The translations under genes were made by a program, and so were the position numbers. From positions 1-28,347 of IMG/VR virus record IMGVR_UViG_3300042868_009843: a stretch of DNA of 28,347 nucleotides; one strand, 5' to 3'. The notes under the pieces were generated by a model. The model saw only the letters and a list, made by a program, of their open reading frames with translations, was not told the origin of the DNA and did not search any database. Of the stretch, positions 3,241-28,333 are shown piece by piece. Within the stretch, counting starts at the first letter, position 1. Each line of letters opens with the position of its first letter. This DNA is from a virus.

Positions 3241-3248
3241 AATTTATT

Positions 3249-5507: not shown

Positions 5508-6743
5508 TTAAGCATTCATCTTGAGTTGTTCGATCTCGGCCTTAAGTTCTTTGATAGCTTCTATCAGTAACGGAATTGTTTTTTCATAATGAACCGCCAT
5601 ATACCCGTCAGTTCTAGTGGTTACTGCTTCTGGCAAAACAGCATTCACTTGTTGAGCCAACAAGCCAGCTTCCCGAACAGACATGTTTTTACCAACTGCC
5701 AGTTCATTCCAATTGAATGTAATTCCTTCCAACTGATTGACTTTGTCTAAAGCATTATCAATTTTTTGTAGGTTTGTTTTTAATCGTTGATCAGAAGTAT
5801 AGTACGCTGTTATATCACCGTTGGCCAATACACTACCAGCAACATATACTGTGCCAGCAATGCTCATGTTTGCTGCTCCAACTATGTTGCCCTGGAACTG
5901 AGCAGAATTATCCTGATTAAGAGTTACTGCAATCACTGGTATTGTTGAACCATTGGGAGTAACAGAGAATACAACTTTGGTTCCATTGGAACCAATGGAC
6001 CAGTTTTCAGCTGCCTGAAAACTAATTCTACTTCTGACAGATGAATAGTTGCTGCCGTTGTAACCCTGTGCGACCAACGATCCAATAAAATCGTTGTTCT
6101 TTACAGACTCCAATGAATTGTTTGACCCGTTTGCACGTCTGAGCACTATCAACGAAGAATTATTTGCGCTGTAATCGTTTGTGGATATAGACCCACCATA
6201 TGAATCTATTAGAACATTGGTTGGCTCGCCCACTCGACCATGTGTTTGTATAGTGGTCGTAGTGTCTGGATCTGACAGTAATGTGCTGGTATTGTTGCTG
6301 ACAACAAATTTTGCCTCAGGCAAGTTGGTTCCTAACCCAAATCTACCTGTAGACGGAATGTATACCAGGCCTCTACCCGACAAGGACGACACTTTGAATT
6401 GCGGAGCGCCAGCAATGGCATCACTGAACGTTAAAAAATGCGGAGTTGTACTAACTGTATCGTTGACCACTGTGGGTTTACTAGCAGCAATCCATTGTGT
6501 GGAATTCCAAACTTTTAGTTCGCCATTGGTTACATCGTACCAAAGTTGCCCAACCAATTGATTTGCTGGAGCAGTTTCGCCAGCAAAATTTTCTGTCAGA
6601 TGTATAAAGTTTTCATTCAGATACTGTCCATATCCTGAAAAATTCTTGCCCACCAAAGCAATACTGGCAGAACTTATGTCAGCAGTGCCGTCATCGACTA
6701 TTGCTAACACATCACCATTCGACAAACTTATATTATATGCCAT
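5508..6743 (-). CDS. Tail fibre with N-terminal attachment domain and C-terminal S74 self-cleaving chaperone
   Basis: A 411-residue fibre. Residues 1-85 carry a fibre N-terminus seen in aquatic myoviruses (ALVGKNFSGYGQYLNENF, LTENFA, GQLWYD, LKVWNSTQW), probably the attachment end. Residues about 125-310 are Ser/Asn/Gly-rich beta-structure with FGLGTNLPEAKF, common in fibre shafts. Residues 315-411 are a peptidase S74 intramolecular chaperone: SDQRLKTN, then VNQLEGITFNWNE, EAGLLAQQVNAVLPEAV and a closing coiled coil (LLIEAIKELKAEIEQLK). S317 and K322 have the five-residue spacing of the Ser-Lys pair in the endosialidase chaperone, so cleavage before S317 after trimer folding is expected. ATG start; GGAG lies about 10 bases upstream. 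The receptor is unknown. Confidence 0.88.
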   Translation of the reverse strand: MAYNISLSNGDVLAIVDDGTADISSASIALVGKNFSGYGQYLNENFIHLTENFAGETAPANQLVGQLWYDVTNGELKVWNSTQWIAASKPTVVNDTVSTTPHFLTFSDAIAGAPQFKVSSLSGRGLVYIPSTGRFGLGTNLPEAKFVVSNNTSTLLSDPDTTTTIQTHGRVGEPTNVLIDSYGGSISTNDYSANNSSLIVLRRANGSNNSLESVKNNDFIGSLVAQGYNGSNYSSVRSRISFQAAENWSIGSNGTKVVFSVTPNGSTIPVIAVTLNQDNSAQFQGNIVGAANMSIAGTVYVAGSVLANGDITAYYTSDQRLKTNLQKIDNALDKVNQLEGITFNWNELAVGKNMSVREAGLLAQQVNAVLPEAVTTRTDGYMAVHYEKTIPLLIEAIKELKAEIEQLKMNA

Positions 6744-6791: not shown

Positions 6792-7418
6792 TTATGCAGT
6801 ACCAGTCAGGTTGGTCAAGCTTTGTATTCTTACCGTATATTCAATTTGAATCAATCTGTTCAAGCTCTTTTGTACTGGATGAAAAATAACGTGAGTCAAC
6901 AATTTACCTGTCCCTGGGCCTGCTGAACTCCAACCCTTGAGTCCTAGCTCATCAAACACAAATGTGTCTTCAGTAAATGGACTGTTATCAAATGCCTGCT
7001 GACCAGCTGGTTCGCCGTAATCGAGCAAACAGGTTACCAATATGTCAGTGTAAACAGTACCAGGCACATGTCGAACTTCCATTTTGTTTCTGATTGGATC
7101 AGTATTGGTGTCGTCATTGTTGTCTACTGTTTTATAGAATGTAGGATTGTATAAATCAGCATTTTGTGTGTTGACATTGGGTGGCAAATAATTGATGATA
7201 CCAGTAGGATCCACGTTGGTTCCGCCGTTGCCAAAGTGCATTTCACTAATAAAAGCTGTCTTTTTATTGGCTAGACTTTGAGCCATAGCTTCACTTATAT
7301 TTTCAAAATGTATTGCATTCTTTTTATCAATCAACAATACGGGATTGTCGCGATCAGTTACATCAGTAATCTTGATCATTCCTAATACTGTTGGTTGTAT
7401 TGATTCGTGTGTATGCAT
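6792..7418 (-). CDS. Tail/baseplate-associated structural protein, function unknown
   Basis: A 208-residue protein. The opening (residues 10-51) has the pattern LGMIKITDVTD, LLIDKKNAIHFENISEAMAQ, which I associate with small phage structural proteins having an N-A-I-H-x-x-N core. The end (153-198) reads FVFDELGLKGW, LLTHVIFHPVQKSLNR and IQIEYTVRI, a beta-rich pattern also typical of phage tail proteins. No enzymatic motif, signal peptide or membrane segment is visible. It lies between the baseplate cluster and the fibre genes, so it may be a fibre connector or peripheral baseplate part (the T4 gp8-gp9 region), but this is inference from place. ATG start with AAAAGGG five bases upstream, a good ribosome site. 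Confidence 0.6.
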   Translation of the reverse strand: MHTHESIQPTVLGMIKITDVTDRDNPVLLIDKKNAIHFENISEAMAQSLANKKTAFISEMHFGNGGTNVDPTGIINYLPPNVNTQNADLYNPTFYKTVDNNDDTNTDPIRNKMEVRHVPGTVYTDILVTCLLDYGEPAGQQAFDNSPFTEDTFVFDELGLKGWSSAGPGTGKLLTHVIFHPVQKSLNRLIQIEYTVRIQSLTNLTGTA

Positions 7419-7438: not shown

Positions 7439-7585
7439 TTAATCTCTACCTTGAGCAATAATTTCACCAGACTCTGGATCAAAGATCTTTAAAAAACTTT
7501 GAACAAAGATACCCGGCTGTTCGTCGGGTATCTTTGAATCGTCAGCTGATTGCTCTTGTGGCTCTTTATCATTATTTATCATCAT
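7439..7585 (-). CDS. Small 48-residue protein of unknown function
   Basis: An ATG at 7583-7585 opens a 48-codon frame ending TAA at 7439-7441, between the giant gene (gap of five bases) and the 208-residue gene (gap of 20 bases). A second ATG follows at once. The peptide has an acidic N-terminal half (NNDKEPQEQSADDSKIPDEQ) and a more ordered end (FVQSFLKIFDPESGEIIAQG). That end resembles the LGMIKITDVTD opening of the next protein. The close packing and protein-like pattern support a real gene. The ribosome site is poor (no clear purine-rich core), so translation may be coupled to the giant gene. It contains a perfect 12-base inverted repeat. No function can be assigned. Confidence 0.6.
   Translation of the reverse strand: MMINNDKEPQEQSADDSKIPDEQPGIFVQSFLKIFDPESGEIIAQGRD
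7504..7536 (-). repeat. Perfect 12-base inverted repeat (hairpin) inside the small gene
   Basis: Positions 7504-7515 (caaagatacccg) and 7525-7536 (cgggtatctttg) are exact reverse complements around a nine-base loop. Transcribed on the minus strand this gives a stable stem, followed after a few bases by TTCAAAGTTTTTT (7491-7503). The T run is offset from the stem, so it is not a textbook intrinsic terminator. It could act as a partial terminator, an RNA-processing site or a 3' protection element between the giant gene and the fibre genes. Confidence 0.6.
7573..7580 (-). promoter_or_regulatory. Possible late promoter at the start of the small gene
   Basis: The minus strand reads GATAAATA, seven of eight against TATAAATA. 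It overlaps codons near the start of the small gene, so it would serve the 208-residue gene about 155 bases downstream rather than the small gene. The hairpin at 7504-7536 would then lie in its leader. It may be chance in AT-rich coding DNA. Confidence 0.25.
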
Positions 7586-7590
7586 ATTTT

Positions 7591-10500
7591 TTAGGTATTT
7601 CCAAGTTGTATGTATCCTGTTGCTGGCACAGATGCGGCCTCTACTAATGTGCCCATTGGATGCAGCAACGGAACTGAAGTTCCTCCTACACCTCTTCTCA
7701 ATTGTCCCAGTGTGGTACCAACCAAGGTGTAATATTCAATTCTTTCACCGTTTATGTGAATAATACCTGGAGTAATAGCGAATACATTGGGCACTGGCAA
7801 ATTGCTAGCGTCAGCTACTTCAATTGTGTTATCAGTCAGATTCAACGGATTAACCAATGTAGTTTTGTAAGTTGGCGCAACTTCAGCTGCTGAACGCACG
7901 TCATTCATGCTAACAAACAGTTTGGCACCAATGCCGTTGTTGTCCATTATGGTAACAATAACACTGTCGTATGTTCTACCAGGCAAAAACTCTTCCGGTG
8001 CATGACTAAACAAGTCAGACACAAAAGTGCCACCTTGTGCTACAATAGCATCAGGACTAAAACCACTGGCAGTGCTGAATGCATTGGACGTAATTGCTAT
8101 TGTTGCAGAACCTGTTCCGGTTCCAGCAGCATTGGCTACAAATATAACACCAACTCCGTCCTTGTGTGCACCAATTGATGTAAATTCTGTAGTACCTACA
8201 TTGGTAACAATATACCTGGTGCCAGCAACAAAGTTACCAGCCGGAATTGAAACTCCAGTAAATCCACCGCCTGTTACCGCAGTATCTTGTATAACCGCTG
8301 TATTGGCATTCAAAATTTGGTTATCCAATCCAGTCATCAATCTTGACAGTACTTTTGGTATCATTGATACAGTCGGGCTGTACGAAGACATGACTCGATC
8401 ATTTGCATTGTTAAAATTTGCAGAGTTGTGCGGAATCCAATCGCTGCGAATAAACTTGCTGTTGGCAGAAACATTAGAAGAATTGATATACGAATTACCG
8501 TTGTAACTCACATATGTTCCTGTTGGATAAGAAGTATTTACTTGCCAATCAACTACTTGAGTACTGTATTGCACTCGATCAAATCTAATAGAAGTTTTAA
8601 TTTTTCTAATTTTGTTGTTATTGATTCGAACCGATCCAATGGTTTGTTTGCGCGGTGTGGTTTCAAATTTACTCAATTGAGTAGTACCCGAACCGCTTAC
8701 AGCAACCAATGGAGTTGTTGTATATCCAGAACCCGGTTGTTCTACAACAAATGCTTGTACGCCGCCTGTTAACGGATCAATGAAAGACCTAACTGCTGTG
8801 TTACCGCCAGTTGCATCGGTCGGAATAATAGAAACATCAGGTGCCTCAATATGACCAAAACCTGCAGATGCAATCTCGACACTTTCGACTTCAAATTTGT
8901 AGTTGTTGTACCAATCTTGATATTCAGGTCTGTTGGCTAACAAATCTGCATCTTTTTCTGGAAATTGGCCGTTAGGGCTGCGAAACACTCCTAGAGTACG
9001 ATCATAATACGACGGCAAATCAAAATCTGTGAATGTAGTAGACAGCAACGGCTCAGTGGTATGATACTCCATGTTGTATTCACGAACTTTGGTTCTGTAC
9101 GGTTTGACTTCGTTTACATACTGTTCATAAAATTCTTGTCTGTTCTTGACATACGACGAAGACGGTTTCAACGCATTTATTCTGTGCTTGATGGATAAGA
9201 AACTGGTTTTAAAAATCCAATCACTGTACTGTTGTTCTGCCAATACAAAATCAATCAAAATAAACAATACCTTGTTGTAGAATTCTGCAAGGTCCTTGAC
9301 AAACACATCGTGCTTGAGCCCTTTGAGGATAAACCTGAGTTCGTTAAACAAACTAAAATCCCAAGGATCAGTATCGTATTCAAATCTATCAAATCCAATT
9401 TGATTCCACAAGTCGGCTTTGATTTGTATGGTTCCGTTTTGTTTGCCAACCAATATATATTTGTTATTGACCTCGTAACGATAGAAGTCAAACAATTGGT
9501 TCCCGCTGTCTTTGACTTTTATAATGTCCCCTACATTGAGATCAATTTTGTATATGTCATTGAATGTGTCAACCACATGAGTAGCCAGAGTTTTATTGTT
9601 GTAACCATCTGCATACCAGTCAGCAAAATCCCATGAGTTGGCAGTATCGAACCCTTGTACTTCTATCAGTACATTATCATCGGTAGTAATGTTTTTACGA
9701 TATATTGTCCATCTGTTAGTGTAATTTTCATCATTTTTAACATATACTCGACTTGGTAGCGCAAACCCCAATAGATTTGAATCACCACTGCCAGTGGCAG
9801 TGAATACTGTGCCAACAGTGTTGGAGCTGGCGCCCACTGTAGTAAAATTAAAGTCGATTATTTCTGTGATAATGTATTGTTTGCCAATTTCAAACGAACC
9901 CGAACTGAACTCAGGAACATAATCTACTTGTTCTTCTGTGTCAACTGTGTAATCGTAACGATCTTCTGGTGGCTCAGGATCTGCTGCATAAAAATTATCA
10001 GAATAAATTGTCTTGTTATTGACAATTCTACCAGCCACAGGATGTTTGATTAGAATTGTGTTGACATATTTCAACACATCTGAAATTGCTTTCTTTCGAT
10101 TCAAAATTATTGTTTGTCTAGGCTTGTTAGATAGACCAACTTGATCACCCGGTAGCAAGGTTGGATCTGGTACCAACGCTCCGCTTTCGTCCATTCCTAC
10201 CAGGCTGTCAATCAGCTTGTTCTCTATCCTTGGATCCATTATGGCAGTTGCATTGTCCTGCTGGAACAATTGATATTCACTGTGTGTGATATTTTCTGTA
10301 ACCTTGACTCGGTATTCGATATGCAATGCAGTATCAGTGCCAGATAAAAAATTACCAACATTATAAAGAGCAACAGCATTGTTTCTCAGAACAGCAGCAT
10401 ACGGAATACCTTGCAGCACAGGTTGTTCAATTCTATAGGCAATATTAAATGCACTATGTGATTTTGACGGTAGTGTTGTAGTTGTTCGGTCTTTGACCCA

Positions 10501-13500
10501 ATAGTAGTATTTGTTTCTGACTTCTTTACTGATGTCGTCAACATAAATCAATTGGACAAACGCCGAATCGTTGGCAAACTTAGGTGTGCCTTCAAGCCCT
10601 TGAGTTATATGCTGCGAAGGCAATACATCGCTTGCTACCCATTCGTATACATCAATGGTACTACCTTCAAACATCTCTGCCCAGTATTGAACTCTGTAAT
10701 TGTTGTCACTTTGTTCGTAATCAATATATCGAACAGTGTCCGTGTCCCACCATATTTTACCAACTTGCTTTTCGCCCCAGTGCAGTTCGTCATCGATGTT
10801 CAAATTCAAATTTGATCCAACATTGTATTGAGCTGGATCAATGTCTGTTTTGAAATCGATGTCTGCTTCGGCACTGCCAAGAATCTTGCCCTTAACTGGA
10901 TCTAAAAAGTCAAGTCGCGACAGTATGGTTTTTGTTTTTTTATTAAACAAATACATGCTGGATATGCTGGTGATGTCAACTACATCTGACTGTCCTTTGA
11001 CAAACTCCCAACTTGGATTTTCAGCGTCAAGGTCTCTGAACCTGATGTTTTTAAATTGTGCAAACTTTTGTGCATGAGCAGAATATCCTATGTTCGATTC
11101 TCCTCGGAACACACCTAATCTAGGATCAGTTGTTAAATTTACAGTCAACAATGTGGCTTCATCAATTGGAAGGCTGTTGAACTGAGAACAGCTGGCTGTT
11201 ATAATATCATCTTCTCTAACAACTGCAATTCGAGAACCAGCTGGGAAAGAATTCCAATTGTTTGGTCCTGGTGCAGATTCTGATCCGTTGTATACTTCCC
11301 ATTCGTCGGATCTGAGATAGTTGTAAACTATACTCCAAGTCTTGGTATTGTTAACAGCGCCTCCTGCTCTTATAGCAGACAATGTGTGCTCTCTACCATT
11401 TTTATCTATAGCAAATGCCAATATCAGTGCCATTGCACCGCCTTGAACAGCCGACGATGTCATAATAACATCATGTGTGTAACGGCTGTACTTGCGGAAC
11501 GAAATAAATCCAGTATAGGATTGTGTATCAGTTCTACATTCCACTAAATTGTTGTCATTGTTATACGCCCAGGCAAATGATTCTGCTGTGCTAGCCGGTT
11601 GCGTTTCCACATTTGGCCTGTGTGAGAATCGAGTCCAAGATATCGACTCACTTAGTGGATCAAACGAATTTGGCGTAGAACGATATGTAACAGGAGCATG
11701 CCCACTACCGCCTACAGTAGAGTTGGCTACTTCAGTAATCACGCTACCGTAAAACTGTGGGCCGATTACATAAGGATATACAGGAGTACCATTTGCATCA
11801 ATGGTTGTAAAATATGCGTATGTTCCATCAGGGTAGTCGGGTGTCACACAATATCTACCGTTGTATTGATCAAGGTCTCCTTGACCACTTAACTCGTAAT
11901 CCTGAATAAACGTGCCCATTGGGCTAGTTACTAGATCGCATGCATCTGTGGTGGCACGATATGCAGCATTGCGTAATCTGTAACCACTGACCATTCTTTT
12001 GATGGCAGCATTGGTACCAGTGGCACTGGTATATCCAAATGGGCCGTAAATTGGATATCCATCAAGGGCATAACCCAATATCTTGCTGTGTCCGCCAGGA
12101 TGAGTCAACACACCGCCAATATAAGTGGTTGATATTGAGTCAGGATCGCCCATGGTGTTACTGGTTGATCCCACGCCTGACAACCAAGCATTGCCAAATG
12201 TATACGCTTTGTATGTGTAAATCTGACTGTCTAGTATTATGCCGCCAGCTTGATCTTTGTTAAGGCCTAGCAGTCCAGGATACATCAGATCGTAATTAAA
12301 TTCTGGAACTATTAAATACCCTGCTGGTGCTAGCAATCCTGCGTCGGGGCTGGTTATTGCAACGCCGTTGATCCAAAATCCAATTAATCCGGTACCTATA
12401 TCCATGTGGGTACTTGCTTCAACGTTGCTGCCGCCATTGATAGGAAACGTTCTGTTGTAATTTTGCTCTACTGCTGTTGTAGAAACTTGTGCGTTACCAA
12501 AACTATGATACGGAAGACCAGATGCTCTTACATTGATTGAAGAGTTTTCAATTGTCCATGAATTTTTTGGTCCAACAAAGTTACCCAGTATACGCCTTAT
12601 ATAGCGGTACACTGCCCAACGATTGTCATTGTCGTTGTCAACCCATACCAAGTCGCCAACAGCTCGAGGTTCTTTTGTTATATCATTGTCTTTGTCTGCA
12701 ATATCTTTGTATCGAGATTTTTGCATTACAAACAATTCAGCTTCACCATCAACTGGATTTGCCAGCAATAACTTGTATTGGTCTTCTGTTACAATTACAA
12801 CCACAGTGTTTGAATCCTCAACATACACTGCTTGATAGAATCCATCAAAACTAGAGTTCAAGCCGCGAATAGCAAAGATATCACCTACTTGTATTCCGTG
12901 ATCAAATCGTGTGATTACTCTTGCTTTGTTATCCAGATTGTATTCAATTGTGACAACTGGTGTGCTAACCAGAATTGCACGATACACTTGCCAATCTTCG
13001 TCGAAGTCTTTGGCCACCCAAAGATTGTATCCAGACTGTAACTCGGCCAGACGTGATGTTAAACTGGCATAATTGTTAAAATCAAACAGTGTACCGTTGA
13101 CATCGTTTACATTGACATAACCAGCTGTCTTGACGTCTGTTTCCAACAAAGTGTCTGGTTCTCTGTTCAAAAAGACAGGTGCTCGGTAACCCTTGGGTCT
13201 GTTCAACAAATCTTTGGGTCGAATAGTGATAAGATTGTCAAGACTTGGTTCTGCTGAATTTAATAATTTAAATGCTGCAGGATTGGCTCTGTACTTGCTT
13301 TCATTTAAAATTATATCAATGCTTTGATTGGACTTGTTGGATCCGTACTCACCTACTCGTAGGCCCCATTCTTCATATATAGAAACATCGTTGACAATGT
13401 TATCAAATTGGCCAGAGTATATGGCAGTGATGGCATTCTTTGTACCTTTGTCTTTGATAAACCCTTGATAGAATCGGCTTTGGGTGTTTTCGTTCAGACC

Positions 13501-16500
13501 AATATTTTCCAAATAAGGTCTGCTGCGATACCCAATCAATCCATTGCTAAATTTGTCAAAATTTTCGTCTATAACAGGGCTATCAATATCGTAGATGCCG
13601 CCTATCTTGCTTGCATTGTGTGCAAAGTTAGGAATCAATCCAGCCGAGAATTGAGTATCTAATTGAGACCAATCCTCATAATTGAAATACATGGTACCAG
13701 GAATATTTCTTATAGCTGAATAATTTCTATTTTTATATTCAACAATGTCGGCCTTTTTGTAATCATGTTCAGGTTCCCATAGATCAACTACGTCGGTGTT
13801 GTACATGAAGCCAGGTGGATTCAATTCTCCAGTCCAGTCGGCTGTTTTGTTTCCAATAATTTTTAATCTGTACTGTCTGCTTCCTAACTCAGTCTTGTAG
13901 ACAATGTCGTTAAAGACGGTTGTGTTGTCAAATACCAATACATGTTCGTATTGAATCAAATTGAGTTCTGCATACGCAATAGTTTGTCCGCTGGTAGTTG
14001 TAATAGTAGTAACACCGGGATCCCTGACCACCGACAACTCATCTGTTCGTATTACATTAAAATTAGGACCCAAGACTTGGGAGTCGTTTGATATATTGGT
14101 TATTGTGTCAACAGCGGCATCGATTCCGTATATGGACATAGAGGACTCAAGCGGACTCAGTACTAGAATATTACCAGTTTTCCATCCTTGCAAAGTCCAG
14201 CTGATAAACTCTCTGGCGCTGAGAATCCAATCTCTCTGATGGCTCAAATTGGTATCATATCTTTCAAACGCAAATCCTTCAGACGACAGGTATCGTTGGT
14301 AGCCAACAAAAAAGTCAACTATCTGTTGTATATTTCTAAATTCAAAACCGTAAGGTACATTGACTTTTTGTGTTTTATAGTCTTGGTATATAACGCCTCG
14401 AACGCCCAATTCTTCTATGGTATAGAAATTTCCGTTAAACTCGCTTGGTATTACAGTGAAGTACGGGTACTTGAGATTGTAACCTGTTACAGTGTAACCA
14501 GCTGGGGATTTTTCTACAATAACTGCACTGTATGTTGCTTTGCGAACTGGTACACTCTTGTTAAGGTGCACCACATAATTCTCGTCTGGTATAATAACAC
14601 TCTTGTTGTTACTGGTAGGACTAAACTGCTCAGACATGACAGTGATGTATTTTTTGTCTGTAAAGGAGGCCATTTTGTAGCCAAGTTTTACATCAACATT
14701 ATTCAAGTTGTTGCGAATCTGTCCAGCTGCATCAAGTCCCAAGTTTGTTAGATAACCGTGTATCCAGTTTATATATCCGCTGGCTCTAACAATGTTACCG
14801 TTGACCAGTTCGCCGTTTATTTTAAACAACAAGGGATTGACTCTTTGATTTAACGAATTCAAAAAGTACTGATCAAGTCCATCGTCTTTGATTTGCGATG
14901 TTACATCAAATTGCAAACTAAAATATCTGGCCGGTGTCAACAAAGCTATAGCACGATTGATAGCAAATGCATAATCGCTGGATCTGACCCAGGCTGTTTC
15001 AACGGGTCCTTGGTCGCCTATTAGGTAAGACTGATTGAATCTGGTGCCGTCAAATGTTTTGACCATAATGGCCTGTGGTGATTTTAATGCACCAGTTGAG
15101 TCAACTGGCAACACCCTGCTGAGCCCAGGTCTTGCATACAAAGGATTACTAGTGCTATCATTCCTATAGAAACCATTTTCTAAATCTTTCCACATTTGAT
15201 TGCCTGGCAAATATGGTGCACTGCCATAAGCCAGGTTCCACCAGGCTGGTTTCTGCACAAATCCCAACATCTCCCATGGATGGGTTGACGGCTTGTCTGT
15301 GTCATAGAAATAGTTGTAAATAGCTCTCCAATAGCCTGGTAGCTTTTCACCTTCTAGTATTTCTGTAGTTTGATTATAGTTCCAGGTAAATTCATCATTG
15401 GGCTGAAAGTACTCGTTGGTACTGTAATCAAGTTGGTTGTTGCCAATCCATTTTAAGAACTCTGTATTTAAAACTTGATTGTATTCTGACAAACTGTAGT
15501 CAAGTTTTCTAAACTTTCCAGGACGTACAGAATTGATATCAAACAATTCTGGATTGTAAGTGACTCTGATATTGTTGTATATGCGATTTTCTAATTCCAA
15601 CATGTACTGATCACGCAGGTCGTCAAATGCCAGTGTAATACTACCATCATGGCCTTGAATTACATTGACCGGATTGCCAGACCTATAGGTAGCATCTTCA
15701 AAAATGCCAGGTTGAAACTTTGGATACAATCCTAGTTTTGTTGGGGTCTCTGGTACATAAGACCCATCAGTATCTCTATACCCTTTGATAAGAACTATGT
15801 CGTTCCTGTTCAGAGTCAACGAACCGTAAAATTGAACAGCGGCAACACTTGAATCAATGAAATAGTCCTTGTCTATTACCAACTGTTGGCCATTTAGATA
15901 GACCAACACTGCTTTGTTTGATAACCCATTTGTTGGAAAGAATTCTGTTCCCAACGCATCACTTATGTTAGGAACACTGTATATCCTGACCGTAGGATCT
16001 ATAATCTTGTAAGTGTCAACTACATAGTTGTCACCCCAAGGAATCATTCCAGAATAAAACCACGGAAAGGTTGGATTCTTGACTCCATTGATTTTGTTGA
16101 GCACGTGATCAACGCCCGACATCACGTCCATGGATATCAACTCTGGCAAGGTGATACACATTTCTAAAAATTTATTCTTAAACCTGCTGTAATCTTTGCG
16201 AGCAAGATCCAGTCCATTGATAAAATTCACTGTTGGATTTGTCAGGAACAACGATGCATACAAGGTAGGAGCACTGTGCTTTAATATGGATCCACCTTGT
16301 TGACTGATGTCCAAATCTCTGACATTGTTGTTGCTTAAAAGATTTCCAGTTACACCAATTGTGTTGTTACCTATTTCAACAAAATGGTTACGAATCTGAC
16401 CCAGTGTAACATAATCCAATGTGAGGTTCATTGGATTGAACTCCAAGTTCTTGGGGATTTGATAATACCCAAGTTCACTAACTTGGTTGGTGTAAATGAA

Positions 16501-19347
16501 AATATCTACACTGTCGTTTAATGCCAGTTCCAAGTCTATATAGACTGCTAGTCTAACGCCAACAGTCTGAACGCTGTGGCTGCTTCTCGGAATCATTTTG
16601 TTATTGACATAAACTTTTAGATTAGGAGTTGTAATATCTGCAGTTGGAACAATGTCTATTTCAAAATAGTTGGTTGTACCGTTGTACACGCCAGTAATGT
16701 GTTGGTATTGTTTTGTGGGTTCCGAAACGGTATTCCATATATTCTCAACACGGTAAGCAGTGCGTCCGATATTTTTTCGTAGGTACCCAGTAGACACATT
16801 TTTTGTAATGCGACTTATGTCTTTGTATGTAAATGTATCATTGTCAAAGTCGTTGACAAAACTAATGTCTGACACCGACCCACCAATTGTGTTATAACTT
16901 ATGGCAAAATTCAACACTGAATCAATTAATCCTGTGCCTGGCTTGTATGAAAAAATCTTAGTTCCAGCAAAAGTGCTTTGCGGATAAGCATTTGTATCCG
17001 ACAAACTGGTATCATTTTGATCTACTACGTCAAACAACGGGGCTTGATTTCGTCGTGTTTTCCATTGGCTTTGTGACCAGCTGGTACCGTTGTACCAATA
17101 ACTTTTCTTTAAATTGTGACCAGCTGTTGCCACAACTGTGTCATAAGCTGTTGCAGTTTTTATTTCCACCAAAGATATTCTAGGGCGTATAAATCTATAA
17201 CGACCTATTGCAGTAAACGTGGCAGGTTGATCAAAAATGATTTCGTTGTTGTTTGGTATTTGAACAACCTTTCCCAGGTATGTGCCATTCCAATCAAAAA
17301 CAAATGATCCAATTTCTAATTCGGTCTTAAATCGTGTCCTGGTGGGTGTGCCTGGTGTAGAGCCGTCTCGCCCCCTGACAGATCCTGCTGTAATAGACAG
17401 CAGCCCTGTGGCAATGCCGTCATAATCTATAGATGTTCGCTGATCTTTAAAATCTATCCTATACACTTTGGATCTAACAAACGAATCCAAATCGTTAGGA
17501 AAAATAACATGCTGTCCTTCCACATAATTCATTAGATCCAGAATTGTGCCGTTGACCAATTGACCGTTTACTTGAGCAAATGCACTGGTAATTCTGGGCC
17601 AGGATCCCTCAACACCTGCGGTCTTGATTTTGTCGTCAATTCGATCAATTATATCTAACAGTGCTCTGCCTGAATTGAACAATTGAAAATCTGCATCAAA
17701 TTCAATGATTGGTCTTTTTGCTCTCAACCTTTCGTCGATTATAACTTGAGTATTGTTGTACTCTGCAGTCTTCATGATAACATCTTCATGAAACCAACGG
17801 TTGGTTCTCACCCAGGCATTGAGATCCAGAGATCCCCGGTTGATAACAATATATTCAGGTGTATCAACACCCAAGGTCGGTTCGTCAAAATTGGTTAAAT
17901 CAAACGGAAAAATATCAAATGGTATGTTGGTTGGTTCAGTGTCGCTTTCAATTGCTCTCATTAATGAGTATTCAACTAATCTAATTGATTTACCGACACC
18001 GTCTACTAGATATGTTCTGTTTCTATAGCTGAAAGGAAAAATTGTTCCATCAAATTTTATTTTGAGACCGTTGGTAAAGACAATGCCTCTTGGCGCAGTA
18101 TAAGTTTTTTTGCCAACAATATCAGTATCAACATTGATGTCATCACCTATGCCATCAACAATTTTTATTCTGCCATAAGTGGATTCGTTGGTGCCATCTT
18201 GGTAATACAAGGTTGACAATGCAGCAGTGATAGGTGGACTTTGAACAATTAGCCCAACAGAGTTCTTGAAATACTCTCTGCCGCCATTGGTATTGCCAAG
18301 ATTGATCAAAATTCTGTGACCAATTGGAATATCTCGCACATATTCAAGCTGTATCTGCGAAGTGTCGCTGATCTTGATTTGCCATAAACCTTTGCGTTTA
18401 TCCACTGGTACAGTGCTACCAGTTCTGGTTGTCCATTGCAAGTCAGGAGTCAAACCGCCTAGGAATATAATATATGCACCATCAGGGAACCCAGTGTCAC
18501 CGTCAAAATCACTGACAATGTTTGCACTGGGGCGATTCCATAGCGACCCGTCGATCAACGAAAAAGGAGTTGATACTGCATAACTAACAAAGTCCAACAC
18601 AGGAGATTTGTAATAGTAATCCTGCGAGTCTTGCTGAGGCACAGTAAAGGTAACTGTACCAAGGTCAGCTCCGTTGCCTGTTACTCCAAATATTTCTCTA
18701 GTGGATGTTCGCTGGCTAAAATTTTTGTAACCATCTGTACCGGGTTCAGTTTGAATCCAAAATGCATTACCAACTTGGTCAACATTAAAATTGTATGTTA
18801 CACCACGAACCAATGTAATATCTGGATTAAGGTCAGAAGCAGTTAGATCTGTGGTATAGGAATTGTTACCACGAGTCACATTGTAAGTCTTGGGTACTTC
18901 TGGATTGCCTACACTGATAGTGACTGCGTCGGGCCCATTGGGCAACCAGTAGTATCGAGTGTAGTTGACAAACTTGTCTAGGTCAATACGGGGGTTATAG
19001 CTGTAATATTCAGATTTAAACAGACGGTCGTGATTTTCTACAACGCCACCGTAATATCCAATTTTGTCAACAATGTCAGTGTAATCACTGTACAGATCAA
19101 TTGCACCGGCCGAATTTTTTACAACCACAGCAGGTTCAAGTTGATAGTTCTGTCGTTGTGTTGTTGGTTCTACAATATAGCTAGAGCTGGTACCGTAGGC
19201 CAACGAAAACTTTCTTCCAGCAAAACCGTCAACTTTGGTAAAGTTGGGCTCGCTCATTAGTTGGTCAAGAGTTGCCCCTAAGAACTTCTTATTGACATCT
19301 GTTCGAAATATGTCAGGAAGAAAATTTATTGTCTTTCGTGTTGCCAT
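7591..19347 (-). CDS. Giant baseplate/tail structural protein, gp7/gpI position, with YHYH-type domain
   Basis: A 3918-residue protein, about 41% of the window. Residues 8-135 are a conserved-looking head (NFLPDIFRTDVNKKFLGATL, YYWLPNGPDAV). A chitin-binding-type module lies at about 1854-1894 (W-x4-DY-x4-IVEY-x4-Y). A YHYH-type domain spans roughly 2278-2486, with GYALDGYPIYGPFGY around D2429. A concanavalin/LamG-like beta-sandwich follows at about 2627-2772. GTTDFT-type modules lie at about 3148-3189 and 3699-3751, and a segment with WIFKTSF and EVKPYRTKVREY at about 3366-3430. Two GFG/GSGY repeats lie at 3486-3552, a second W-Y-Y module at 3597-3637, and a C-terminal HINGERIEYYTLVG/LGQLRRG module at 3838-3917. 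It directly follows gp6, so it occupies the gp7 (1032 residues in T4) or gpI slot. Wedge/tail-pin function is inferred from position; enzymatic activity is not evident. No frameshift is seen. Confidence 0.78.
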   Translation of the reverse strand: MATRKTINFLPDIFRTDVNKKFLGATLDQLMSEPNFTKVDGFAGRKFSLAYGTSSSYIVEPTTQRQNYQLEPAVVVKNSAGAIDLYSDYTDIVDKIGYYGGVVENHDRLFKSEYYSYNPRIDLDKFVNYTRYYWLPNGPDAVTISVGNPEVPKTYNVTRGNNSYTTDLTASDLNPDITLVRGVTYNFNVDQVGNAFWIQTEPGTDGYKNFSQRTSTREIFGVTGNGADLGTVTFTVPQQDSQDYYYKSPVLDFVSYAVSTPFSLIDGSLWNRPSANIVSDFDGDTGFPDGAYIIFLGGLTPDLQWTTRTGSTVPVDKRKGLWQIKISDTSQIQLEYVRDIPIGHRILINLGNTNGGREYFKNSVGLIVQSPPITAALSTLYYQDGTNESTYGRIKIVDGIGDDINVDTDIVGKKTYTAPRGIVFTNGLKIKFDGTIFPFSYRNRTYLVDGVGKSIRLVEYSLMRAIESDTEPTNIPFDIFPFDLTNFDEPTLGVDTPEYIVINRGSLDLNAWVRTNRWFHEDVIMKTAEYNNTQVIIDERLRAKRPIIEFDADFQLFNSGRALLDIIDRIDDKIKTAGVEGSWPRITSAFAQVNGQLVNGTILDLMNYVEGQHVIFPNDLDSFVRSKVYRIDFKDQRTSIDYDGIATGLLSITAGSVRGRDGSTPGTPTRTRFKTELEIGSFVFDWNGTYLGKVVQIPNNNEIIFDQPATFTAIGRYRFIRPRISLVEIKTATAYDTVVATAGHNLKKSYWYNGTSWSQSQWKTRRNQAPLFDVVDQNDTSLSDTNAYPQSTFAGTKIFSYKPGTGLIDSVLNFAISYNTIGGSVSDISFVNDFDNDTFTYKDISRITKNVSTGYLRKNIGRTAYRVENIWNTVSEPTKQYQHITGVYNGTTNYFEIDIVPTADITTPNLKVYVNNKMIPRSSHSVQTVGVRLAVYIDLELALNDSVDIFIYTNQVSELGYYQIPKNLEFNPMNLTLDYVTLGQIRNHFVEIGNNTIGVTGNLLSNNNVRDLDISQQGGSILKHSAPTLYASLFLTNPTVNFINGLDLARKDYSRFKNKFLEMCITLPELISMDVMSGVDHVLNKINGVKNPTFPWFYSGMIPWGDNYVVDTYKIIDPTVRIYSVPNISDALGTEFFPTNGLSNKAVLVYLNGQQLVIDKDYFIDSSVAAVQFYGSLTLNRNDIVLIKGYRDTDGSYVPETPTKLGLYPKFQPGIFEDATYRSGNPVNVIQGHDGSITLAFDDLRDQYMLELENRIYNNIRVTYNPELFDINSVRPGKFRKLDYSLSEYNQVLNTEFLKWIGNNQLDYSTNEYFQPNDEFTWNYNQTTEILEGEKLPGYWRAIYNYFYDTDKPSTHPWEMLGFVQKPAWWNLAYGSAPYLPGNQMWKDLENGFYRNDSTSNPLYARPGLSRVLPVDSTGALKSPQAIMVKTFDGTRFNQSYLIGDQGPVETAWVRSSDYAFAINRAIALLTPARYFSLQFDVTSQIKDDGLDQYFLNSLNQRVNPLLFKINGELVNGNIVRASGYINWIHGYLTNLGLDAAGQIRNNLNNVDVKLGYKMASFTDKKYITVMSEQFSPTSNNKSVIIPDENYVVHLNKSVPVRKATYSAVIVEKSPAGYTVTGYNLKYPYFTVIPSEFNGNFYTIEELGVRGVIYQDYKTQKVNVPYGFEFRNIQQIVDFFVGYQRYLSSEGFAFERYDTNLSHQRDWILSAREFISWTLQGWKTGNILVLSPLESSMSIYGIDAAVDTITNISNDSQVLGPNFNVIRTDELSVVRDPGVTTITTTSGQTIAYAELNLIQYEHVLVFDNTTVFNDIVYKTELGSRQYRLKIIGNKTADWTGELNPPGFMYNTDVVDLWEPEHDYKKADIVEYKNRNYSAIRNIPGTMYFNYEDWSQLDTQFSAGLIPNFAHNASKIGGIYDIDSPVIDENFDKFSNGLIGYRSRPYLENIGLNENTQSRFYQGFIKDKGTKNAITAIYSGQFDNIVNDVSIYEEWGLRVGEYGSNKSNQSIDIILNESKYRANPAAFKLLNSAEPSLDNLITIRPKDLLNRPKGYRAPVFLNREPDTLLETDVKTAGYVNVNDVNGTLFDFNNYASLTSRLAELQSGYNLWVAKDFDEDWQVYRAILVSTPVVTIEYNLDNKARVITRFDHGIQVGDIFAIRGLNSSFDGFYQAVYVEDSNTVVVIVTEDQYKLLLANPVDGEAELFVMQKSRYKDIADKDNDITKEPRAVGDLVWVDNDNDNRWAVYRYIRRILGNFVGPKNSWTIENSSINVRASGLPYHSFGNAQVSTTAVEQNYNRTFPINGGSNVEASTHMDIGTGLIGFWINGVAITSPDAGLLAPAGYLIVPEFNYDLMYPGLLGLNKDQAGGIILDSQIYTYKAYTFGNAWLSGVGSTSNTMGDPDSISTTYIGGVLTHPGGHSKILGYALDGYPIYGPFGYTSATGTNAAIKRMVSGYRLRNAAYRATTDACDLVTSPMGTFIQDYELSGQGDLDQYNGRYCVTPDYPDGTYAYFTTIDANGTPVYPYVIGPQFYGSVITEVANSTVGGSGHAPVTYRSTPNSFDPLSESISWTRFSHRPNVETQPASTAESFAWAYNNDNNLVECRTDTQSYTGFISFRKYSRYTHDVIMTSSAVQGGAMALILAFAIDKNGREHTLSAIRAGGAVNNTKTWSIVYNYLRSDEWEVYNGSESAPGPNNWNSFPAGSRIAVVREDDIITASCSQFNSLPIDEATLLTVNLTTDPRLGVFRGESNIGYSAHAQKFAQFKNIRFRDLDAENPSWEFVKGQSDVVDITSISSMYLFNKKTKTILSRLDFLDPVKGKILGSAEADIDFKTDIDPAQYNVGSNLNLNIDDELHWGEKQVGKIWWDTDTVRYIDYEQSDNNYRVQYWAEMFEGSTIDVYEWVASDVLPSQHITQGLEGTPKFANDSAFVQLIYVDDISKEVRNKYYYWVKDRTTTTLPSKSHSAFNIAYRIEQPVLQGIPYAAVLRNNAVALYNVGNFLSGTDTALHIEYRVKVTENITHSEYQLFQQDNATAIMDPRIENKLIDSLVGMDESGALVPDPTLLPGDQVGLSNKPRQTIILNRKKAISDVLKYVNTILIKHPVAGRIVNNKTIYSDNFYAADPEPPEDRYDYTVDTEEQVDYVPEFSSGSFEIGKQYIITEIIDFNFTTVGASSNTVGTVFTATGSGDSNLLGFALPSRVYVKNDENYTNRWTIYRKNITTDDNVLIEVQGFDTANSWDFADWYADGYNNKTLATHVVDTFNDIYKIDLNVGDIIKVKDSGNQLFDFYRYEVNNKYILVGKQNGTIQIKADLWNQIGFDRFEYDTDPWDFSLFNELRFILKGLKHDVFVKDLAEFYNKVLFILIDFVLAEQQYSDWIFKTSFLSIKHRINALKPSSSYVKNRQEFYEQYVNEVKPYRTKVREYNMEYHTTEPLLSTTFTDFDLPSYYDRTLGVFRSPNGQFPEKDADLLANRPEYQDWYNNYKFEVESVEIASAGFGHIEAPDVSIIPTDATGGNTAVRSFIDPLTGGVQAFVVEQPGSGYTTTPLVAVSGSGTTQLSKFETTPRKQTIGSVRINNNKIRKIKTSIRFDRVQYSTQVVDWQVNTSYPTGTYVSYNGNSYINSSNVSANSKFIRSDWIPHNSANFNNANDRVMSSYSPTVSMIPKVLSRLMTGLDNQILNANTAVIQDTAVTGGGFTGVSIPAGNFVAGTRYIVTNVGTTEFTSIGAHKDGVGVIFVANAAGTGTGSATIAITSNAFSTASGFSPDAIVAQGGTFVSDLFSHAPEEFLPGRTYDSVIVTIMDNNGIGAKLFVSMNDVRSAAEVAPTYKTTLVNPLNLTDNTIEVADASNLPVPNVFAITPGIIHINGERIEYYTLVGTTLGQLRRGVGGTSVPLLHPMGTLVEAASVPATGYIQLGNT

Positions 19348-19358
19348 TGTATACCTGT

Positions 19359-22300
19359 TTAATTAACTTCAACTATGCCTTGGTTTAGTTGGCTTGCTGT
19401 AACTGCTGCAATAACTTCAATGTCGTTTACTGTTGCTGCACTGATAATGATTTCGTTTGGTTCAGAATTGATTTGTTGTAGCGTGCCAAATCGAATTGAC
19501 GAATCTTTGGGAACAATAATAATACTAGCAATGTTGGGTGTCAATGCACGGTGCAGATACGCTGCTAGTTCACTGAAATAAAATGTTTCTCCAAAATCCC
19601 AATTACTGATATCAAAGTATTCGTTAATTGCACTTATTACTGTTGTCTTTATATCAGCATCACTGATATTTAAGTTGGGATTTTTAACTACTTTAAATAT
19701 TGCCTGCAAATTACTAGCAGCTTTGTCACCAAAAATTGGTTTGTAAATTGCTGGTTGGAACACAATAGTGTCACTGATGGTCTTTAAGTTATTTAACTCA
19801 CCAAATTCTACTGATAATTCTGCATTGGTAGGGTCGTCGGGTTTTGCAACAACTGAAGATACGTCATATATCCATCTGCGATAAGCAGTATCGTAATTGT
19901 TGGTCAACACATATACATCAATTATGTTGCTGATACTGGGGTCAACTCGTCTTGTGTTGGGACTGTTGTGTCGGTATTGAAAGTATATGTCTCGACGACC
20001 AACAAAAGCAGCATATCGTGTCAGTGCCGGGCTCAGACCTTTGGTCATAGAGTTTAGCTGTATAACAGAGTAAAATAATTTATCAGTTGTGGTATAAAAC
20101 ACCTGGCCAACCGGATACGTATCAATGTCTCCGAGTATAGCATTGCGTGTTGCATACTCTGAGATAATTTGCCCACTAGGAACCAGTGACGAATCTATGT
20201 ACCTATTAAAACCCACTCCTGTAACTGTTTCAAAGAAAATTAATTTGGAGCTTGAGTTTAATGCTGGATTGACAATTTGTTCAAACAGTTGCGGATCATC
20301 AGGAACTCCATCATTGTCACTGTCAGCATAAGTCAGATATATTCTAGTATTGTCTGAGTACCCGTCAACGTCAATTAGAGGTTTGTGAACAGCCCATACT
20401 TTGTTCTTGCCCAATGGTACATTCTCATCAGGTTTGGAATTTGTTTTTAAAACATTGATGTGATCTTGTATAACTTTGCCTGTTTTACTATCGTACACTT
20501 TCAACGATCTGTCAAAGTAAAATGTAGTCTCCAGTGGACTGTGAAACACATACTCAATGCCTCGATGGCTGACCAAGTATTGATCGTTGTTGCTGTTGTA
20601 TTCAAATTTAACCAACCAATCAGTATCGGTTAGCAAATTTACATCTCTAATTAGTCTCCAGGACTGCAACGAATCACTATACGCAATTCCAAAATTCTTA
20701 TAAGTTTTAATTAAATTTACCAGTGTAGTAGTAAATCCAATTGAGAAGTTGTTTTTGTATACTGGAATAATCGAATGTACAATAGCACCAGTAGGAATTT
20801 TGTCGTTTAGTGTAACAGGTCCCTGACCGTTGGTAAAATTGCCCAGACCTTGATTGGTACCATCATCAAATACTCCAATGATAGATGAATATATTTCTAA
20901 TCGATCGTCCGGACCAGTTGGTGTTCCAACTACCAAAATGTTTGAACCATTAAAATAGAAACCGTCGGGCGCAACAAATTTAATGGTTGCACCGTTGCGC
21001 AAATATTTACTATTGCCTCCAACTGTGACTGCTATCCTATACGGATCACCAAATCGTTTGAAGTAACCTGTAGAACTATTGTTGCCAACGGTACTCTGGC
21101 TCCATTCAACTGTTGCATCGTATGCCTCACCGTCACCAAATCCAGTGTCTGTTCCGATACTGGTTGCTACAAAATTTGCGCCAATTACATTACGAGTTCC
21201 GCCAATTGTGGTGAAATCAGTTGTACCAACGGAAGAAATAATATATCTACGCCCAATAATAAATTGTCCAGCTGTAAGAGCTGTACCCGGTAATGTCAAT
21301 GGCGCGGCTGTTGAATAGTACAGGTGCATCATTTCTTTGCTGGCTATCAGGTCATTGATCACTCGATCATATATTATATTCTGTATGTCATTTTGACTTC
21401 TGAAACTGAATGTAAAAGATTTTGTATAACGATTTTCATATAGAACACCGTCTTGACCAAAAATGTTGGTGCTAGAATATTTTCCAGTGGTATCAATCAT
21501 GTCAAGATATCGACTCAGACCACTGCTGGTTCTGTTGATTGCTTTGGCTTTGACTACCTGACTAAATGTGGTGTAAGGCAAGATATTATAATCTTCGCCT
21601 GTGATCATACGATTTTGAGTATAATACTGTTGCGGTGCCTTTTGCTTGATCTGTTCTGTGCTTTCTCTTGCACTTGCATTGGCCACAGTGTACTTCAGAC
21701 TGGCGCGGAATGTGACAGTTTCTACTCTGTTCAACCTACTCAGGTAATTGAAAGATATAGTAATAGATCGCATTTCGTCGGGGGTGATTCTATAGTTCAA
21801 GCCGTTGCCTGTTCTGTAGTAAAGTCTGTAGTTGCCTTGAGGAATGTTTGTAAAGGATCCGTCACCAAATACCAGACTGATCCTATCTCCGGCACGAGTA
21901 TTGATTTGATAAAGATTTCTGTCTTCGATATTGTTGTAGATAATGTTGATACCAGACGTTGCTGGTACTTTGGTCCACAGCTTGTCAGTTGTACCATCAG
22001 AATTCAAACTGTACAACCACACATCGTTGTTGTTGATGTTGTCAATGTCCACATCAACAACTTTGTTTGGCACTGCTTCGGCAATAGAAAAATCCAAGCT
22101 GGAGAGGTTACCTTGTTTAAAATAAAAGAAGTAACCAGTGTTGTTGCTGGTGTTGCCATTGAAATCGTTACGGTACAAGAAATTAAAAGGACGATTAAAG
22201 TCAGGCGCAACTTCGTACAGGTAATCTTTTCCAAGGCTGGATGCACTGACCAATTCAAATATGGTTCTGGTTCCTTCAACGCTGGAATCGTAACGATAAA

Positions 22301-22938: not shown

Positions 22939-23316
22939 TTAACCAGCAACAGCCAATGTTCTAGATGACCTGTCAAATCTCAGTGCAAGATTTTCAACCT
23001 GACTTGTTAGTACATATCGCAATTCTAGTTCAATTTGTATTCCGTGATTGAATTCTGTCACTACAACACTTTCTGCTTCGATTCGTGGGTCATAATTGAC
23101 CACATTCTTGATATCTGATATAATGACTTCTCTGACATCGTCTGTCAACGGTTCAAACAGCAGATCCCATATCACTGTGCCAAACTTTGGATTCATCAAT
23201 TTTTCTCCTCTACGAATAGAGAAGTGATTGAACAGATCCTGTCTTACCAATTCAAAATCTGTCAGCGTAAATTTGCGCACTCTATTATAGGTACTAAAGC
23301 CAAGGTATGTAGTCAT
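22939..23316 (-). CDS. 25: Baseplate wedge protein gp25 (GPW/gp25 family)
   Basis: A 125-residue protein that fits the gp25 family in length and motifs. The hallmark block is residues 35-56 (RRGEKLMNP, FGTVIWDLLFEP), followed by an acidic helix (DDVREVIISDIKNVVNYDPRI, residues 59-79) and a closing beta segment (GIQIELELRYVL). In T4, P2 (gpW), Mu and type VI secretion (TssE) this protein joins the inner baseplate and nucleates sheath assembly. It lies between the spike and gp6/J genes, the conserved order for contractile machines. ATG start; AAAGG lies 12 or so bases upstream, a modest ribosome site. Confidence 0.93.
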   Translation of the reverse strand: MTTYLGFSTYNRVRKFTLTDFELVRQDLFNHFSIRRGEKLMNPKFGTVIWDLLFEPLTDDVREVIISDIKNVVNYDPRIEAESVVVTEFNHGIQIELELRYVLTSQVENLALRFDRSSRTLAVAG

Positions 23317-28030: not shown

Positions 28031-28333
28031 TCAGATTCCCAATGCCGCTACTAGTGTTTCTTTACTAGGTATGTATATCATTTGTCCTGGAGAAAAATCA
28101 TATATAGGATCTCTAATAATGTTGGGATTTCTGGCTGCAAAAACCCACCACAAAGAAGAATACCCGTACAAGTCCGATGCCAACAGGTCAGGGCGATAAC
28201 CGTATGTTGAATTGATTGTGTATTGTACATCCAATGGATTTTTTGGTATTGGTCTTTGTTCTAGTACATCCAGGAACCCACCAAATGTTTTAGTAGTGTA
28301 ATACGGACTAAATTTGTTGTATTCTGCAGCCAT
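28031..28333 (-). CDS. 53: LysM-like baseplate protein (T4 gp53 / tail protein X type)
   Basis: A 100-residue protein. Residues about 39-95 look like a LysM-type fold: YTINSTYGYRPDLLA, then LYGYSSLWWVFAARNPNII and an ending GQMIYIP. T4 gp53 has the same pattern (A.A.YGN.QLYWVL), and P2 protein X and the Mu LysM tail protein hold the same slot before the hub gene. In T4, gp53 links wedges around the central hub. It is much shorter than T4 gp53 (196 residues), so only the LysM-like core is present. The start is an ATG with AGAGGA (28342-28347) eight bases upstream, the best ribosome site in the window. The stop lies one base before the hub ATG, so the two are probably translationally coupled. 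The general role is fairly secure; the exact gp53 name is less so, because other baseplate LysM proteins look alike. Confidence 0.72.
   Translation of the reverse strand: MAAEYNKFSPYYTTKTFGGFLDVLEQRPIPKNPLDVQYTINSTYGYRPDLLASDLYGYSSLWWVFAARNPNIIRDPIYDFSPGQMIYIPSKETLVAALGI

Follow-up and report, generated by a model that had tools for sequence, protein, structure and literature searches.

What kind of protein fills the position behind gp6 in a baseplate gene cluster when the gene found there has 3,918 codons? This question is raised by a single IMG/VR virus record, IMGVR_UViG_3300042868_009843, whose 28,347 bases, probably a fragment, were analysed as a whole and are called the window here. A sequence-only reading of the window had assigned the giant protein to the slot of T4 gp7 or P2 gpI.

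Gene order around the giant gene

Every large gene of the window lies on the minus strand, and the order of transcription is gp53-like, hub-like, spike-like, gp25, gp6-like, giant, 208-aa, 411-aa fibre-type, 745-aa, and 1,080-aa protein, the last gene being cut by the contig end (Table 1). The giant frame starts with ATG 11 nt behind the stop of gp6 and runs uninterrupted for exactly 3,918 codons. The IMG/VR contig L010 holds the same gene (residues 26-3918, 100% identity in the best segment), so the frame is confirmed by translation and by a second contig and is not an assembly artefact of the window alone. The upstream order proposed from the sequence, LysM-hub-spike-gp25-gp6, was also found, but the supposed LysM protein is gp53-like, and the cluster is not otherwise compact, as gp6 has 1,180 aa here against 660 in T4. 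Towards its C terminus, the spike-like protein has a stretch (window 23344-23900 (-), NESRFDYGATEKARGNYLGKYQFGSAAL...) that had no Pfam match and may resemble a transglycosylase-type domain.

Across 95 loci with a giant gene, gp6 is present and adjoins the giant in 88, gp25 lies upstream in 80, and spike, hub, and gp53 genes were found in 72, 58, and 47, respectively; the missing neighbours mostly reflect short contigs or contig ends. The assignment to the gp7/gpI slot holds family-wide. The order spike-gp25-gp6-gpI-fibre is the same in P2 and Mu with their small gpI and gp48, and in the wedge operon gp6 is followed immediately by the giant gene, which has the position of a T4-type gp7. On its 3' side, the 208-aa protein follows in 62 of the 95 loci and an S74 fibre gene in about 60. 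In RaK2, CBB, and PBECO4, this pair is found kilobases from the giant gene on the opposite strand, and gp25-gp6-giant is unbroken; in Vibrio 2.275.O, the 208-aa gene adjoins the S74 fibre gene. Because the fibre pair was relocated in the former three phages and gp25, gp6, and the giant remained together, the giant gene is linked to the wedge genes and not to the fibre genes.

Table 1 Features of the window in the order of transcription, with the evidence for each
Feature	Position	Strand	Evidence
gp53-like wedge protein	28031..28333	(-)	PF11246 E 2.7e-4
Hub-like protein, 831 aa	25534..28029	(-)	Position and synteny; no Pfam match
Spike-like protein, 721 aa	23344..25509	(-)	PF04717 weak, E 0.002; synteny
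gp25-like wedge protein	22939..23316	(-)	PF04965 E 2.4e-10
gp6-like baseplate wedge protein, 1,180 aa	19359..22901	(-)	PHROG_10646 E 4e-292, PHROG_219 E 1e-25 (wedge subunits)
Giant baseplate protein, PHROG_10938 family	7591..19347	(-)	ORF, translation, PHROG_10938 1072 bits, 58 aligned relatives
N-terminal scaffold, residues 1-650	17398..19347	(-)	Column occupancy mostly 0.8-1.0, 59 relatives
Central scaffold, residues 750-2250	12598..17100	(-)	Alignment; AF2 of 1195-2255 pLDDT 80
CBM5/12-type W-Y-Y module 1, residues 1846-1893	13669..13812	(-)	Profile match to chitin deacetylase/chitinase binding domains
gp7-block best match, residues 1952-1987, FYQGFIKDKGTKNAI	13387..13494	(-)	Rank 1 in position matrix
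YHYH domain, residues 2314-2519, accessory	11791..12408	(-)	PF14240 E 3.2e-28; 8/59 relatives
Concanavalin-like/tail-fibre-type region, residues 2566-2775, accessory	11023..11652	(-)	PHROG_33406 tail fiber protein E 4e-32; 2/59
C-terminal scaffold, residues 2800-3480, EVKPYRTK helix region	8908..10950	(-)	Alignment; AF2 pLDDT 79; no matching fold in PDB
GSF module copy 1, residues 3148-3188	9784..9906	(-)	Family HMM E 6.6e-20
GSGY beta module, residues 3476-3556	8680..8922	(-)	Common to ACP17, Yut3, S-SM2, S-CREM2 gp7-slot proteins
CBM5/12 module 2, residues 3595-3637	8437..8565	(-)	PF02839 E 2.2e-7 (Pfam at 3601-3621)
GSF module copy 2, residues 3702-3742	8122..8244	(-)	Family HMM E 3.2e-19
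RGT (RGVGGT) beta module, residues 3828-3902	7642..7866	(-)	Common to cyanophage gp7
Conserved 208-aa protein downstream of giant	6792..7418	(-)	PHROG_11259; synteny
411-aa fibre-type protein, Peptidase_S74 chaperone domain	5508..6743	(-)	PF13884 E 6.8e-17
745-aa Ig-repeat (He_PIG) protein and 1,080-aa repeat protein (DUF4214 match)	within 1-5486	(-)	

Family and build of the giant protein

The giant belongs to a family that is already known and widespread, and which is poorly described and unnamed. It matched PHROG_10938 ("virion structural protein") in four stretches that cover most of the protein, and it could be aligned over its full length with the proteins of RaK2, PA5oct, SCTP-2, CBB, and others. 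Relatives were detected by tblastn in 57 phage records, the matches listed being jumbo myoviruses or their fragments (PA5oct-like, RaK2-like, CBB/GAP32-like, PBECO4/121Q-like, SCTP-2, Atu_ph07, Phosso, Vibrio 2.275.O), and a scan of IMG/VR returned at least 588 confirmed relatives. The annotated giants of RaK2, CBB, PA5oct, SCTP-2, and Atu_ph07 have 3,326-4,555 aa. Over the whole scaffold, the window protein is homologous to those of RaK2, CBB (CBB_236), PBECO4, PA5oct (gp355), SCTP-2 (gp140), Atu_ph07 (gp180), and Phosso at 24-31% identity, and these genes share its place after gp25-gp6 where that is annotated; however, few of them have its YHYH domain or concanavalin-like region, and their annotation is generic only. 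The window phage is probably a RaK2/PA5oct/SCTP-2-type jumbo myovirus. The rarity that the sequence-only reading implied for a giant protein in the gp7 slot was not borne out, as both jumbo phages and cyanophages commonly encode such proteins.

Relatives of the giant are present in virions. CBB_236 was detected in CBB virions with 21 peptides and 7.72% coverage (PMC5259590), and gp245 of phAPEC6 (381.88 kDa), which is listed right behind the baseplate wedge protein gp244 and equals the PBECO4 homologue in size, was detected with 17 unique peptides (PMC7247149). The record of PA5oct gp355 bears an ESI-MS/MS note. The name gp7 is not given to the homologue in the available parts of the CBB, phAPEC6, and PA5oct sources. 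By analogy with these three relatives, the giant of the window phage should also be a virion protein.

The build of the giant is that of a conserved scaffold with exchangeable modules. This was seen in an alignment of 59 proteins, i.e., the window protein and 58 full-length frames from IMG/VR and phage records after removal of near-duplicates, which range from 3,326 to 6,307 aa. The conserved scaffold, about 2,700 residues in total, comprises residues 1-650, 750-2250, 2800-3130, 3200-3480, and roughly the last 150, and the variable stretches are residues 651-750, 2250-2800, 3150-3200, and 3480-3750. Family profiles recovered the CBM5/12 module in 56 of the 59 proteins, GSGY and RGT in 54 each, GSF in 9, YHYH in 8, and the concanavalin-like region in 2; these counts are lower bounds, because the profiles were grown from the window protein. 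The YHYH domain and the concanavalin-like region are regarded as accessory because so few relatives carry them. The surface-binding modules expected from the sequence are indeed present: the W-Y-Y modules are of the CBM5/12 type, with chitin deacetylase and chitinase binding domains matched at 1845-1891 by a profile of residues 1195-2255; the YHYH domain is PF14240; and the concanavalin-like region (about 2568-2771), which has no match in Pfam, matches tail-fibre PHROGs. The GSF module has about 42 residues (GSFxxGKxYxIxxxGTTxFTxIGAxxNxxGxxFxATGxG), and in addition to the two copies in the giant, one is found in the adjacent gp6 (window 21153-21275, E 1.6e-15). It is a short mobile module that appears to hop among neighbouring structural genes.

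Comparison with gp7 and gpI

At 3,918 aa, the giant is far larger than T4 gp7 (1,032 aa), as had been noted, and the length of gp7-slot proteins in T4-type phages is itself highly variable: 482 aa in ACP17, 503 in Yut3, 1,937 in S-CREM2, and 4,156 in S-SM2. The closest precedents are S-SM2 gp7 ("baseplate wedge initiator"), which lies between gp6 and gp8 and, like the window protein, is giant and carries YHYH and GSGY, and S-CREM2 gp122, a large gp7-slot protein with the same two modules. The RGT module was detected in S-CREM2 by HMM and in S-SM2-type proteins by hhalign. More generally, non-T4 gp7-slot proteins share GSGY with the giant, and those of cyanophages also share RGT and YHYH. Because these modules are mobile, they do not prove homology of the giant core to gp7. 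In S-SM2, the gp7 block is clear and 41% identical to that of T4 over 34 aa, whereas the window protein has no clear block; no scaffold homology to the window protein is detectable in S-SM2 or S-CREM2; and gp8 and VrlC follow gp7 in S-SM2, whereas neither was detected in the jumbo relatives of the window (eight and seven genomes, respectively). T4 gp7, the wedge partner of gp6, shares its gene position and a weak trace of the DFYxSKGT block with the giant, but it is about a quarter of the size, has other modules, and shows no significant sequence or fold match. P2 gpI, Mu gp48, and XM1 gp17 (176-242 aa) likewise occupy the slot after gp6/gpJ and before the fibres, but they are minimal wedge proteins with no significant match to the giant.

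Conservation among T4-type gp7s is highest in the block DFYxS[KR]GTxxSFxxLFxxLYNxxV, which ties cyanophage gp7 to T4 gp7 (hhalign 92.7%, E 4e-7) and ACP17/Yut3 to the cyanophages (hhalign 97.7%). When 400-residue slices of the giant were compared with the gp7 of T4, cyanophages, and ACP17/Yut3 by hhalign, there was no significant match to the gp7 core (best E 0.014-0.5), and significant matches were obtained at the mobile GSGY and RGT modules only. A core profile of 12 gp7s, which recovers the gp7 of T4 (6.5e-8) and that of Vibrio F86 (6.6e-8), had no match up to E 10 in any of eight complete jumbo genomes, be it in the giant or elsewhere; thus, no alternative gp7 candidate was found in these relatives. 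Profile searches gave no significant match of the giant to P2 gpI, and PF09684 (Tail_P2_I) matched neither the relatives' genomes nor T4 itself, which makes this a test without power. N-terminal 'LP' and C-terminal 'KP' motifs looked gpI-like by eye and were not supported by profile tests.

Usable AlphaFold2 models were obtained for residues 1195-2255 (pLDDT 80) and 2795-3480 (pLDDT 79), and no gp7 or gpI was among the PDB matches listed by Foldseek for either. The first model gave small-domain matches only (about 100 columns, phage endosialidases) besides spurious long ones, the second gave no PDB match, and BFVD returned members of the giant's own family. A phmmer search of the giant against the PDB found no match; the profile of 1195-2255 matched essentially CBM5/12 domains alone, and that of 2795-3480 matched nothing. 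Residues 3300-3450, one of the regions that the sequence-only reading singled out for comparison with gp7 and gpI, lie inside the second model.

There is nevertheless a stretch that is suggestive of a trace of the gp7 block, namely residues 1952-1987. When the block matrix was averaged over the giant family, residues about 1949-1988 ranked first of about 3,500-3,595 positions, with a z of 6.3 against 4.0 for the runner-up. The score was reached by 10 of 1,000 column shuffles with all gp7s, 2 with non-T4 gp7s, and 1 with ACP17/Yut3 alone, and after removal of sparse columns by 3 with the gp7 matrix and 2 with gp7 plus gpI; these p-values are optimistic, because the block was spotted by eye before testing. 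None of six control families taken from these loci reached it. A matrix of T4-type sequences alone did not place 1952-1987 first, a gpI-alone matrix placed it second without significance, and the block reaches 2-5 bits in the giant family against 30-40 in true gp7s. AlphaFold2 predicted a helix (1953-1965), KGT, and a second helix (1970-1978) in this low-confidence stretch. On the gp7/gpI identity, the slot and the weak block thus speak in favour, while the lack of a significant profile or fold match speaks against. Homology of the giant to T4 gp7 is not proven, and we do not file it as gp7.

The sequence-only reading had also proposed that the giant absorbed the functions of gp8-gp12. A gp8 profile that finds the gp8 of T4, F86, S-SM2, and ACP17 found no gp8 gene in eight complete jumbo relatives; the matches in Atu_ph07 and Phosso fell inside the giant frame and, like that of one further large Phosso frame, concerned the repeat-module part of the profile, and none of them lies on a gp8 gene. 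The Pfam gp9/10 N-domain had no match above the cut-off in seven complete jumbo genomes. In pelagimyophages, T4 gp7 was not seen and VrlC was suggested in its place, and their structural operon also holds YHYH and concanavalin domains (PMC7029224). Such a substitution of gp7 by VrlC, as proposed for pelagiphages and cyanophages, was rejected here, as no VrlC match was found in seven complete jumbo genomes. The absence of gp8 and VrlC fits a peripheral baseplate that is built differently; the absence of gp8 agrees with the proposal, but the takeover by the giant goes a step beyond these results, and fibre genes persist downstream.

Role of the giant protein and the fibre genes next door

We consider it somewhat probable that the giant is a wedge or peripheral baseplate protein that does the job of gp7, bears carbohydrate-binding arms, and relays contact. 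Its constant place beside gp6 and behind gp25 argues for the job of gp7. A wedge protein in the gp7 slot is further indicated by the P2/Mu order, the detection in virions, the 482-4,156 aa range of proteins in this slot, the shared GSGY, RGT, and YHYH modules, the block at 1952-1987, and the lack of another gp7 candidate. That a wedge protein may carry arms is supported by phage XM1, in which loops of the 242-aa gp7 orthologue gp17 hold the tail spikes (PMC10457771), and by AlgoCIS, in which fibres are bound by a gp7-like part that the wedge exposes (PMC8894135). We infer six copies of the giant, one per wedge, in which the scaffold would flank and contact gp6 and gp25. The modules (CBM5/12, GSGY, RGT, and sometimes YHYH and the concanavalin-like region) would project outward, touch glycans of the cell surface, and dock the fibres encoded next door. 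Binding would tilt the wedge, and the contact would pass to the gp6/gp25 core and from gp25 to sheath contraction, as in T4-type systems (PMC10457771, PMC8894135). It is possible, though doubtful, that one giant chain assumed the roles of gp7 and gp8 together with some of those of the peripheral baseplate and kept a remnant gp7 block in its scaffold of about 2,700 residues, which is suggested by the absence of gp7 and gp8 from eight complete relatives and of VrlC from seven.

It is rather unlikely that the giant is instead a peripheral adsorption protein, analogous to a short fibre or tail pin, that sits in the gp7 slot while the third wedge chain is small or gp6 alone suffices. This would agree with the lack of a detectable gp7/gpI fold or profile match, with the carbohydrate-binding and fibre-type modules, and with a gp6 that is enlarged too; however, the giant strictly adjoins gp6/gp25 even where the fibre genes switched strand, its conserved scaffold far exceeds any fibre, and precedents in the gp7 slot equal it in size. 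We also think it improbable that the product of the frame is split into several virion proteins with no 430-kDa chain in the particle, because although the peptide coverage of just 7-8% in CBB and phAPEC6 would allow this, a single uninterrupted frame is present both in the window and in the 58 relatives that were aligned. The idea that the 208-aa PHROG_11259 protein is the real wedge protein and the giant an inserted accessory is improbable as well, as its gpI-like length and its position 3' of the giant in 62 loci are outweighed by its having the S74 fibre gene as neighbour in RaK2, CBB, PBECO4, and Vibrio 2.275.O, by its location in the first three, kilobases away and on the strand opposite to the giant, and by the gp7 block profile, which found nothing in it.

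Hundreds of environmental jumbo-phage contigs encode a 350-700 kDa virion protein labelled merely 'virion structural' or 'YHYH protein', and placement in the wedge hands this family a testable structural role. It suggests that large myoviruses may build host contact into the wedge via swappable glycan-binding modules. Such a design would be in keeping with work on contractile injection systems, in which the gp7-like part was called a re-engineering hotspot (PMC8894135).

The 208-aa protein, which shows 39-91% identity among relatives and has the S74 fibre gene as its neighbour even where the two lie apart from the wedge genes, is perhaps a fibre adaptor. Between it and the giant gene lies a 48-codon ORF (window 7439-7585 (-), MMINNDKEPQ...GIFVQSFLKIFDPESGEIIAQGRD), which at its end is similar to the beginning of the 208-aa protein. 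A similar ORF of 46-64 aa is found 3' of the giant in about nine IMG/VR relatives, and the annotation of PA5oct and Atu_ph07 has a protein of 41-42 aa at this place. Further downstream, the 745-aa Ig-repeat protein occurs in 3 of the 95 related loci and the 1,080-aa repeat protein in 9, so the wedge region is far less variable than that of the fibres. In one relative (L040:7687), the match of the 1,080-aa repeat protein falls within the giant gene region, where fibre-type repeats may have been inserted into the giant protein.
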